Made by a program: the position numbers and the translations under genes
The notes under the pieces: generated by a model
What the model was told of the DNA's origin: nothing
The model's database searches: none
What the model saw: the letters and a program-made list of their open reading frames with translations, nothing else
Assembly (NCBI GenBank): GCA_026003195.1
Contig: BPGU01000001.1
Coordinates: forward strand, 1 to 64,000
Source of the DNA: Armatimonadota bacterium
Lineage (GTDB): Bacteria; Armatimonadota; HRBIN16
DNA length: 64,000 nt
Reading direction: 5' to 3'
In this document: in pieces, positions 37,887-49,007 of the stretch
Layout: every line of letters starts with the position of its first letter
How positions within the stretch are numbered: the stretch's first letter is position 1

Positions 37887-39107
37887 TTACGCAATTTTTA
37901 CGGAGGCAGTGATAGACGCCGGCAAGAGTTCAGGGGTAACCAGCTCGGCGTCGCTATCCGCCAGCACGACAGCTCGCTCAATGGCGTTCTCGAGCTCACG
38001 CACATTGCCGGGCCAGTGGTAACTCATCAGGATTTCCATTGCCTCCGGGGTGCACGCTTTCAGATGTTTGTCATTCTCCTGGTTGTAGCGGTTCAGGAAA
38101 TGTTCCACCAGAAGCGGGATATCTTCCTTGCGCTCGCGCAAAGGTGGCAGGTAAATCTCCACGACGTGCAGGCGAAAGTACAGGTCCTCGCGGAAGGTGC
38201 CTGCCTTCACCATTTGCTCCAGGTCCTTGTTGGTCGCGGCGATAAGGCGTACATCCACCTTAATGGTCTTGGTGCCGCCAAGCCGTTCGAACTCCCGTTC
38301 CTGCAAGACACGCAGCAATTTCACCTGAACACTGGGAGGTACTTCGGCGATTTCGTCGAGGAACAGGGTGCCTTTGTGCGCCAGTTCGAATCGCCCCGGT
38401 TTTTGCGATGCCGCGCCGGTGAAGGCGTTCTTCTCGTGACCGAACAGCTCGCTTTCCAGCAGCGTTTCGGGCAAAGCGGCACAGGACACCGCAATGAACG
38501 GCCCATTTGCCCGATTACTGCTGTAGTGAATGGCTTTTGCTACCAGCTCTTTACCGGTTCCGCTCTCTCCGCGAATCAGCACGGTAGCACGGCTTTGAGA
38601 CACCTTCTCAATCGTCTGGTATACTTCCTGCATCACTCCGCTTCTGCCCACGATGTGGCGGAAATCGAAGGTGCTACGTAGTTGTTGACGCAGCCGCCGA
38701 TTTTCCTCTCTGAGCCGATACTCCTCCGCCGCTTTGTCTATTTTCGCTCTCAGCTCATCCAGGTCGAAGGGTTTGGTGATATAGTCCACCGCGCCGTCTT
38801 TCATTGCCTGCACAGCTGTCTGGATGGTTGGGAAAGCAGTCACCATAATCGCCCTGCTATCCGGGTGAATCTCTCGGATACGGCGCAACACGTCCAGTCC
38901 GTCTGTTCCACCCGGCAGAATCAGGTCAATGAGTAACAGATGCACTGGCTGCTGCGAGGCGATTTCCAGCGCTTTGGGACCATGCTCAGCGGTTAACACG
39001 TTATAATATTTGGAGAGGTGCGCCTCCAGGGCTCGACGGTGCCCTGGCTCATCTTCCACAATCAACAGCGTCAAAGGTATCTGTGCTTCGGATTCGGTTC
39101 TTTTCAT
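37887..39107 (-). CDS. NtrC-family sigma-54-dependent response regulator lacking the Fis-type HTH
   Basis: 406 residues. REC domain (LLIVEDEPGHRRAL, acceptor Asp in LLLIDLILPGGTDG, MVTAFPTI, ITKPFDLDEL), then an AAA+ sigma-54 activator with Walker A IRGESGTGKELVAKA, the loop ELFGHEKNAFTGA, Walker B GTLFLDEIAEVPP, sensor FREDLYFRLHVV and WPGNVRELENAIERAV. It ends soon after (LLPASITASVKIA) with no helix-turn-helix, so it must work from solution or via a partner. It is 27 bases downstream of its histidine kinase. Confidence 0.95.
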   Translation of the reverse strand: MKRTESEAQIPLTLLIVEDEPGHRRALEAHLSKYYNVLTAEHGPKALEIASQQPVHLLLIDLILPGGTDGLDVLRRIREIHPDSRAIMVTAFPTIQTAVQAMKDGAVDYITKPFDLDELRAKIDKAAEEYRLREENRRLRQQLRSTFDFRHIVGRSGVMQEVYQTIEKVSQSRATVLIRGESGTGKELVAKAIHYSSNRANGPFIAVSCAALPETLLESELFGHEKNAFTGAASQKPGRFELAHKGTLFLDEIAEVPPSVQVKLLRVLQEREFERLGGTKTIKVDVRLIAATNKDLEQMVKAGTFREDLYFRLHVVEIYLPPLRERKEDIPLLVEHFLNRYNQENDKHLKACTPEAMEILMSYHWPGNVRELENAIERAVVLADSDAELVTPELLPASITASVKIA

Positions 39108-47695: not shown

Positions 47696-47783
47696 CTGTC
47701 CTCTTCCTCCGTATGCAAATTGTACAGGTTCGGGCAGGGAATTGTCAACAGAAATTCTCTGCTCTTTCCGGGAGAGATTGTGC

Positions 47784-47808
47784 TATAATCATAATGATAA
47801 TCATTACT
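47784..47808 (+). promoter_or_regulatory. Extended -10 promoter overlapped by a Fur box
   Basis: TGC-TATAAT (TATAAT at 47784-47789) is followed directly by CATAATGATAATCATTACT at 47790-47808. That matches the 19-base Fur consensus at 16 of 19 positions, with a perfect ATGAT-A-ATCAT centre. A bound metalloregulator would cover the transcription start. The ATG at 47825 follows a TAGGAG site. Confidence 0.8.
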
Positions 47809-47824
47809 GATAGGAGCATCTACT

Positions 47825-48973
47825 ATGAGTGCCGACCGACGATTGATTGCATCTATTCAAGAGGTGATTCAGGGTGAGCTGTCCAGTGCGCAGACCTACC
47901 GTCTGCTGGCGAAGCGAGAGAAGGATCCGCGCAGGAAGGAGATACTGGAGCAGCTTGCGCAGGTAGAGGACCGACACGCGGAGGAGTGGAGCCGACGACT
48001 GGTCGAACTGGGAGGTGAACCGCCGCAGGTTCGCAAAGTGAAGCCGCTGTTCGGCTGGCAGGCGTATCTGGCAAGTCCCGAGCTGATACTGCGACGGATG
48101 GAGGAGCACGAGGACGAGGCGGTAGCACGTTACCTTCAGATGCAACACTGGGGCGATGAGCGCATCGCCGAGATCGCGCAACAGGTCATGCAGGATGAAG
48201 AGGAGCATGCACACATCACGCATGCACTGTATTCCGCTTCGAGTACTGAACATCCAGTGGAGCGCATCCTGAAGCGGGAACACTGGCACGTGCGCGGCGG
48301 CTCGTGGATAGGCGATGCCATTTACGGCATCAATGACGGGCTTGGTGCGGTGTTTGGTATCGTGTCGGGTATGGCAGGCTATAGTGCAGGCAGCGAAGCA
48401 GGGCATCAGACGGTGTTGATCGCCGGGCTGGTGGGTACGTTAGCCAGTGCGCTGTCGATGGGGTCGGGGGCGTTTCTGGCGGCGAAGTCCGAGCGCGAGG
48501 TGTATGAGGCGGAGCTGGCGCGCGAACGCAAAGAGCTGCACGAGAACCCGGAAGAAGAGATTGAAGAGATGAGCCTGTTCTACCAGCTCAAGGGCTTTTC
48601 CAGAGAGGAGTCAGAGGCGATGGCGCGCCGTCTGGCGGAGAAGCCCGACCAGATGCTGCGCTTGATGGCACACGAAGAACTGGGGCTGTCCGAAGCCAGC
48701 TTCCCCAATCCCTGGATATCTCTGCTCTCCTCGATGGTGTCCACGGCGATTGGTGGTATCATACCGGTGCTGCCTTTCTTCTTCGCGCGAGGATGGGCAG
48801 CGGTTTTCTGGTCAGCGTTTGTCAGTGTGCTGGCGCACTTCGCGGTGGGCGCAGCCAAGAGCCTGGTGACCACCCGCAAGTGGTGGGTGAGCGGGCTGGA
48901 GATGACCGCTATCGCCTTCGTCGTAGGCGTGTTGACCTATCTGATCGGTGTGCTGTTCAACGTGCACGTCTAA
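47825..48973 (+). CDS. mbfA: MbfA-type ferritin-like/VIT1 (CCC1) fusion, iron exporter or store
   Basis: 382 residues. The N-terminal erythrin/ferritin-like four-helix domain (1-150) has di-iron ligands in SAQTYRLLAKREKDPRRKE, EDRHAEEW, MEEHEDEAVARY and QDEEEHAHI. The C-terminal VIT1/CCC1 transporter (about 155-382, five helices) has GSWIGDAIYGINDGLGAVFG, SMGSGAFLAAKSEREVYEAE and HEELGL. MbfA proteins of alpha-proteobacteria export iron and protect against peroxide, under Irr/Fur control. The Fur-like box upstream fits derepression or activation by iron. A terminator hairpin follows. Confidence 0.93.
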   Translation: MSADRRLIASIQEVIQGELSSAQTYRLLAKREKDPRRKEILEQLAQVEDRHAEEWSRRLVELGGEPPQVRKVKPLFGWQAYLASPELILRRMEEHEDEAVARYLQMQHWGDERIAEIAQQVMQDEEEHAHITHALYSASSTEHPVERILKREHWHVRGGSWIGDAIYGINDGLGAVFGIVSGMAGYSAGSEAGHQTVLIAGLVGTLASALSMGSGAFLAAKSEREVYEAELARERKELHENPEEEIEEMSLFYQLKGFSREESEAMARRLAEKPDQMLRLMAHEELGLSEASFPNPWISLLSSMVSTAIGGIIPVLPFFFARGWAAVFWSAFVSVLAHFAVGAAKSLVTTRKWWVSGLEMTAIAFVVGVLTYLIGVLFNVHV

Positions 48974-48983
48974 GAAGGAAAAA

Positions 48984-49007
48984 CCGCCGGATGAAAACAT
49001 CCGGCGG
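48984..49007 (+). terminator. Hairpin terminator after mbfA
   Basis: Perfect ten-base stem CCGCCGGATG/CATCCGGCGG with loop AAAA, 10 bases after the stop, followed by a short T-rich stretch. Confidence 0.75.

Follow-up and report, generated by a model that had tools for sequence, protein, structure and literature searches.

A predicted Fur-family-type operator on the mbfA promoter of an Armatimonadota bacterium and its probable PerR-like reader

Our analysis indicates that the palindrome lying directly after the -10 element of an mbfA-type gene in an Armatimonadota bacterium is, as predicted from sequence, a true Fur-family-type operator. We consider it probable that this palindrome belongs to a regulon of about five operons read by a PerR-like protein, the sole Fur-family member of the genome, and that mbfA is released by peroxide. 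The predicted regulon would comprise mbfA, perR with a peroxiredoxin gene (prx) and tlpA, katG or a Mn-catalase gene, dtxR/feoA-feoB and an operon for a cytochrome-bd-like oxidase. The host genome measures 4.58 Mb, and relatives of the organism include Bacterium HR16 and the metagenome-assembled genome Chthonomonadia bacterium Ch118. The gene lies in the 64-kb stretch of DNA analysed here (the window), and comparisons were made across ten genomes of the genus; mbfA is present in nine, and the tenth (G007), in which it was not found, is 77% complete.

The promoter carries an extended -10 element, TGCTATAAT, read from the sequence at 47781-47789 on the plus strand, followed with no gap by the 19-bp core CATAATGATAATCATTACT (47790-47808, plus strand). 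This core matches the Fur consensus GATAATGATAATCATTATC at 16 of 19 positions; no other match with three mismatches occurs in the 64 kb window, and none as good was returned by 100 dinucleotide-preserving shuffles of it. Matrix scanning delimits a longer, 26-bp operator, AATCATAATGATAATCATTACTGATA (47787-47812, plus strand), that reaches three bases into the -10. Two 7-1-7 dimer sites are predicted within it on the plus strand, TCATAATGATAATCA at 47789-47803 with two mismatches to TGATAATNATTATCA, and TGATAATCATTACTG at 47795-47809 with three; the sites overlap at an offset of 6 bp, and the register of the second, approximately TGNGAAYNATTATYA in the genus alignment, is the one kept across the genus. 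A consensus -35 was not found at 16-18 bp from the -10, which is consistent with a promoter of the extended -10 type, and a Shine-Dalgarno sequence, AGGAG, can be read at 47812-47816 on the plus strand. On the minus strand, a strong sigma-70 promoter (TTGACA-18-TACAAT, 47719-47748) diverges from mbfA and points towards a short open reading frame and queA.

The gene itself (47825-48973, plus strand) encodes 382 amino acids, with Pfam assigning residues 9-136 to Ferritin/Rubrerythrin and the membrane C-terminus, residues 163-375, to VIT1 (PF01988, 208.7 bits); the best solved relative of this C-terminal part is VIT1 (6iu3). Eight aligned members of the family share E18, E48-xx-H51, E93/E96 and E125-xx-H128 without exception, a pattern that would fit a di-iron carboxylate site. 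A 10-bp hairpin at 48984-49007, called on both strands and listed on the plus strand, is a probable terminator. The first-pass annotation had described a 16-of-19 match to the Fur consensus immediately after an extended -10, beside a gene of the MbfA ferritin/VIT1 type; the match and its placement hold, and the domain assignments bear out the protein type, with iron export as its predicted activity.

Conservation of the operator was seen throughout the genus. It is present on all nine congeneric mbfA promoters, at a constant distance after the extended -10, and AATAGTAACGAGAACTATTATC and AATAGTAATGAGAATCATTCTT exemplify the boxes found. The motif TGNTATAAT recurs in every one of these promoters, with a pairwise column identity of 0.92 in the -10, and the 19-bp box reaches 0.74 over the nine genomes as against 0.28-0.39 immediately upstream. 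Among mbfA homologues outside the genus (in Verrucomicrobiota, other Armatimonadota and Alicyclobacillus) no box stood clearly above shuffle level, and we therefore claim no conservation beyond the genus.

Palindromic A+T-rich words do occur near promoters, and at three mismatches the genome holds 90 loose 7-1-7 matches, so that a chance palindrome beside the -10, with no regulatory role, has to be weighed; we find it scarcely credible. The matches inspected lay largely within open reading frames, and one word present in five copies among them, TGATAGCGATTATCG, is a possible coding sequence for the prepilin-type motif VIAIIAI; for both reasons the raw genome-wide count was discarded. The chance reading is already contradicted by a cross-validated scan, in which the matrix drew on the perR, katG, feo and cyd sites found in other genomes and included neither an mbfA site nor any site from the window's genome. 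Among 127,950 window positions this matrix placed 47787-47812 first with 30.2 bits; no site outside it scored above 12.3. It is this first rank, obtained with a matrix trained on other promoters of other genomes, that leads us to regard the mbfA site as an operator of the Fur-family type; conservation in nine species and the coherence of the promoter set likewise speak against chance. When each class of site was left out in turn, nearly all held-out sites scored so high that a handful of window positions at most did as well, and these were mostly the mbfA box itself. The exception was the cyd site of the window's own genome, at 4.6 bits with 24 positions as good; the element there seems displaced by some 6 bp.

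The same box recurs at other genes of iron and peroxide metabolism, and it was found at the perR-prx, katG, Mn-catalase, feo and cyd-like promoters. Two sequence-only models were used, R1 built solely from the mbfA and perR operators and R2 from these together with the katG, feo and Mn-catalase sites; the 26-bp window site is matched by both, being itself part of both training sets. Across the ten genomes R1 picked out six further places, five of which are promoters of katG (three), Mn-catalase (one) and dtxR-feoA/feoB (one). In the window's own genome the R2 matches at E<=10 are confined to mbfA, katG, feo and perR; in six other genomes the model also recovered the cytochrome-bd-like operon, on which it had not been trained. 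A further R2 match, G005:C7:87532 (E 0.9), adjoins a CRISPR-like repeat and was taken as chance. In G003 a perfect TGATAATGATTATCA precedes the gene of a secreted protein with no Pfam match (L232, C62:7105-7127).

These promoters differ in how the element is placed. At perR a related element, AATAGGAACGAATACTATTCT, follows the -10 in all nine genomes, the operator itself being a weak 7-1-7 match. The feo promoters of nine genomes have the cleanest boxes of the set, TGAGAATNATTCTCA or nearly so, directly after the -10. The katG box lies in the region of the -35/-10 spacer, not after the -10, and one katG-like gene of G001 has no box. In G009, where no katG was found, a Mn-catalase gene (L186) carries the same operator at C5:1637-1659, which suggests that the type of catalase has been exchanged under one regulator. 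A box-like element is readable at the cyd-like promoter in all nine genomes examined. The cytochrome-bd subunit I-like gene of the genus (L241-L249; e.g. G000:C1:1118533-1119282), with a GATAACGAT-type box after its -10, is a distant member of its family, and its Pfam match is weak (44.9 bits).

A search of the 4.58 Mb genome for fur or perR yielded a single Fur-family gene (L001), above the cut-off for PF01475 and encoding about 125 amino acids. The nearest solved structure of its product is Bacillus subtilis PerR (2fe3, E=1.4e-24), followed by PerR 4i7h. Aligned to 2fe3, the protein has all the PerR ligands (His37, Asp85, His91, His93 and Asp104), which are kept in nine genus sequences, and the four structural Zn cysteines align as two CxxC motifs, CERC and CPEC. 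Whether Asp, as in PerR, or Glu, as in Fur, occupies the 104 position is reported to decide peroxide sensitivity (PMC4866751). The best NCBIfam model is PerR at 112 bits, below that model's lineage-specific cut-off of 200. The gene is followed by one for a peroxiredoxin and then by one for a thioredoxin-like protein (tlpA), and neither a separate fur gene nor a canonical Fur with Glu at the Asp104 position was found in the genome. Since the sole Fur-family gene is PerR-like and heads a peroxiredoxin operon, the regulator is probably PerR-like and not a classical Fur. The proposal of the first-pass annotation that Fur controls mbfA thus stands as far as a metalloregulator of the Fur superfamily and a repression-type layout are concerned; a Fur in the strict sense is not supported, the only Fur-family gene being PerR-like. 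Of the two findings that the annotation named as refuting it, a genome lacking any Fur-family gene and a palindrome not conserved upstream of orthologues, neither was obtained within the genus. In another family of the phylum (G057:C175, L110:1018-1470) the last 4 bp of a PerR-like gene are shared with the start of an mbfA homologue (ATGA), the two genes forming a putative single operon, and a box-like AGAGAGTAATTCTTA follows a putative -10, TACAAT, of the PerR-like gene.

From these features we infer the protein that reads the box, repression, the peroxide signal and the export activity of MbfA. Once its regulatory site is loaded with Fe2+ (or Mn2+), a PerR-like dimer would sit over the -10/start region of mbfA, a box position that is typical of repression; two such dimers, overlapping at an offset of 6 bp, would probably be bound, blocking RNA polymerase. 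Peroxide would oxidise the Fe-loaded regulator, which would then leave the DNA and allow MbfA to be made. We propose release by peroxide because genes for peroxide removal occur in the same set and because the ligands of the regulator are of the PerR type. The ferritin-like domain of MbfA would capture and oxidise Fe2+ and the VIT domain would export Fe2+, so that Fenton-active iron would be lowered while catalase and peroxiredoxin remove peroxide.

Several observations count against a PerR-like reader. The operator of perR itself matches the 7-1-7 pattern weakly, a katG-like gene of G001 has no box, and mbfA homologues of other Armatimonadota and of Verrucomicrobiota show none clearly above shuffle level. 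The cleanest boxes are those of feoAB, and induction of iron import by peroxide seems counterproductive; moreover, a DtxR-FeoA protein encoded by one of the boxed operons could read at least the box of that operon. The first gene of the feo operon (G000:C1:821583-822611; L251, L204; L203), which precedes feoB, encodes a 343-amino-acid protein with a hydrophobic N-terminus, a DtxR/MntR-type region, an iron-dependent repressor dimerisation domain and a FeoA domain; it looks like a membrane-anchored DtxR-FeoA fusion and is present in nine genus genomes. The main rival to the PerR-like reader is that this fusion reads the mbfA and feo boxes according to iron and autoregulates feo, the perR and katG boxes being merely similar. 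Autoregulation predicts what is seen on its own promoter, namely the cleanest palindrome, TGAGAATNATTCTCA, in nine genomes, and some mbfA boxes are almost identical to the feo box, such as TGAGAATCATTCTTA in G008. We nevertheless hold this to be unlikely: the GATAAT-like hexamers of the box are Fur-type and not DtxR/IdeR-like, the same element stands on the perR-prx, katG, Mn-catalase and cyd promoters, and DtxR-FeoA relatives of other families (G010, G019) have no box. The DtxR/IdeR-type pattern TTAGGTTAGGCTAACCTAA has no match in the window. The second DtxR/MntR gene of the genus also argues against such a reader, since in three genomes the sequence upstream of it differs from the box; this gene (L212-L214) has a conserved promoter sequence of its own, GGCATAATTTAGAT, unlike the Fur-type box and a possible second metal operator of the genus.

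A box on feoAB would also be expected if the sole Fur-family protein responded mainly to iron, as a Fur that shuts off feoAB under iron-replete conditions and whose peroxide response is minor, in which case mbfA would follow iron/manganese status; there being one Fur-family gene, both roles would fall to its product. This reading we regard as distinctly improbable, given the PerR-type Asp at the discriminating position, the adjacent peroxiredoxin and the catalase targets, and repressing an iron exporter in response to iron alone would be control of the wrong sign. As for the PerR-like reader, it is conceivable, though we put it forward tentatively, that in this deep, uncultured lineage one PerR-type protein, with no Fur, uses a single class of operator to govern peroxide defence, iron import by feoAB, iron export by MbfA and a terminal oxidase, import and export being co-repressed and released together by peroxide; it would then be a merged Fur/PerR regulator.

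Experimental descriptions of MbfA exporters are confined to alphaproteobacteria, where the protein is under Irr (PMC7762939). In our literature search no paper joined a PerR regulon with mbfA, and the papers inspected did not connect MbfA with control by PerR, an absence that is not proof. The presence in Armatimonadota of the same fusion protein, probably governed by a PerR-like regulator, indicates that lineages have wired it to peroxide and iron sensing separately, each time with a member of the Fur superfamily. For this uncultured genus of a little-studied group, the analysis predicts a peroxide/iron regulon whose operator is concrete and testable, and a single Fur-family protein of the genome may cover the tasks of Fur and PerR alike.

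In Bradyrhizobium, mbfA is repressed by Irr and derepressed at high iron or high H2O2 (PMC4902296), and the known MbfA proteins of Bradyrhizobium japonicum and Agrobacterium are under Irr control, with heme-dependent degradation and an ICE box (PMC4902296, PMC7762939). The system described here shares with them the fusion of ferritin-like and VIT1-like parts, a Fur-superfamily repressor and the link to iron and peroxide, but it has a box of the Fur/PerR type and a PerR-like regulator, and the ICE-like pattern TTTAGAANNNTTCTAAA has no match near the gene and one, at chance level, at 38595. The suggestion that control here departs from the alphaproteobacterial Irr mode is supported. In B. subtilis, the PerR regulon includes katA, ahpCF, mrgA, fur and pfeT, and the Fe2+ exporter PfeT, under PerR/Fur control, is repressed by PerR and released by peroxide (PMC9993123). 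As in that regulon, a PerR-type regulator would hold a catalase/peroxidase, a peroxiredoxin and an iron-removal gene under one class of box, the iron-removal protein being the ferritin-VIT1 fusion MbfA here and the PfeT exporter or the MrgA mini-ferritin in B. subtilis. The regulons differ in that feoAB and a bd-like oxidase are boxed here, there is no separate Fur and the operators depart from TTATAATNATTATAA. The pair of overlapping TGATAATNATTATCA-type sites, offset by 6 bp, is shared with classical Fur operators, although, unlike classical Fur systems, this genome has no canonical Fur with Glu at the Asp104 position. Taken together, the precedents of Irr in Bradyrhizobium and PfeT in B. 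subtilis point to the same physiological aim here, served by another sensor.
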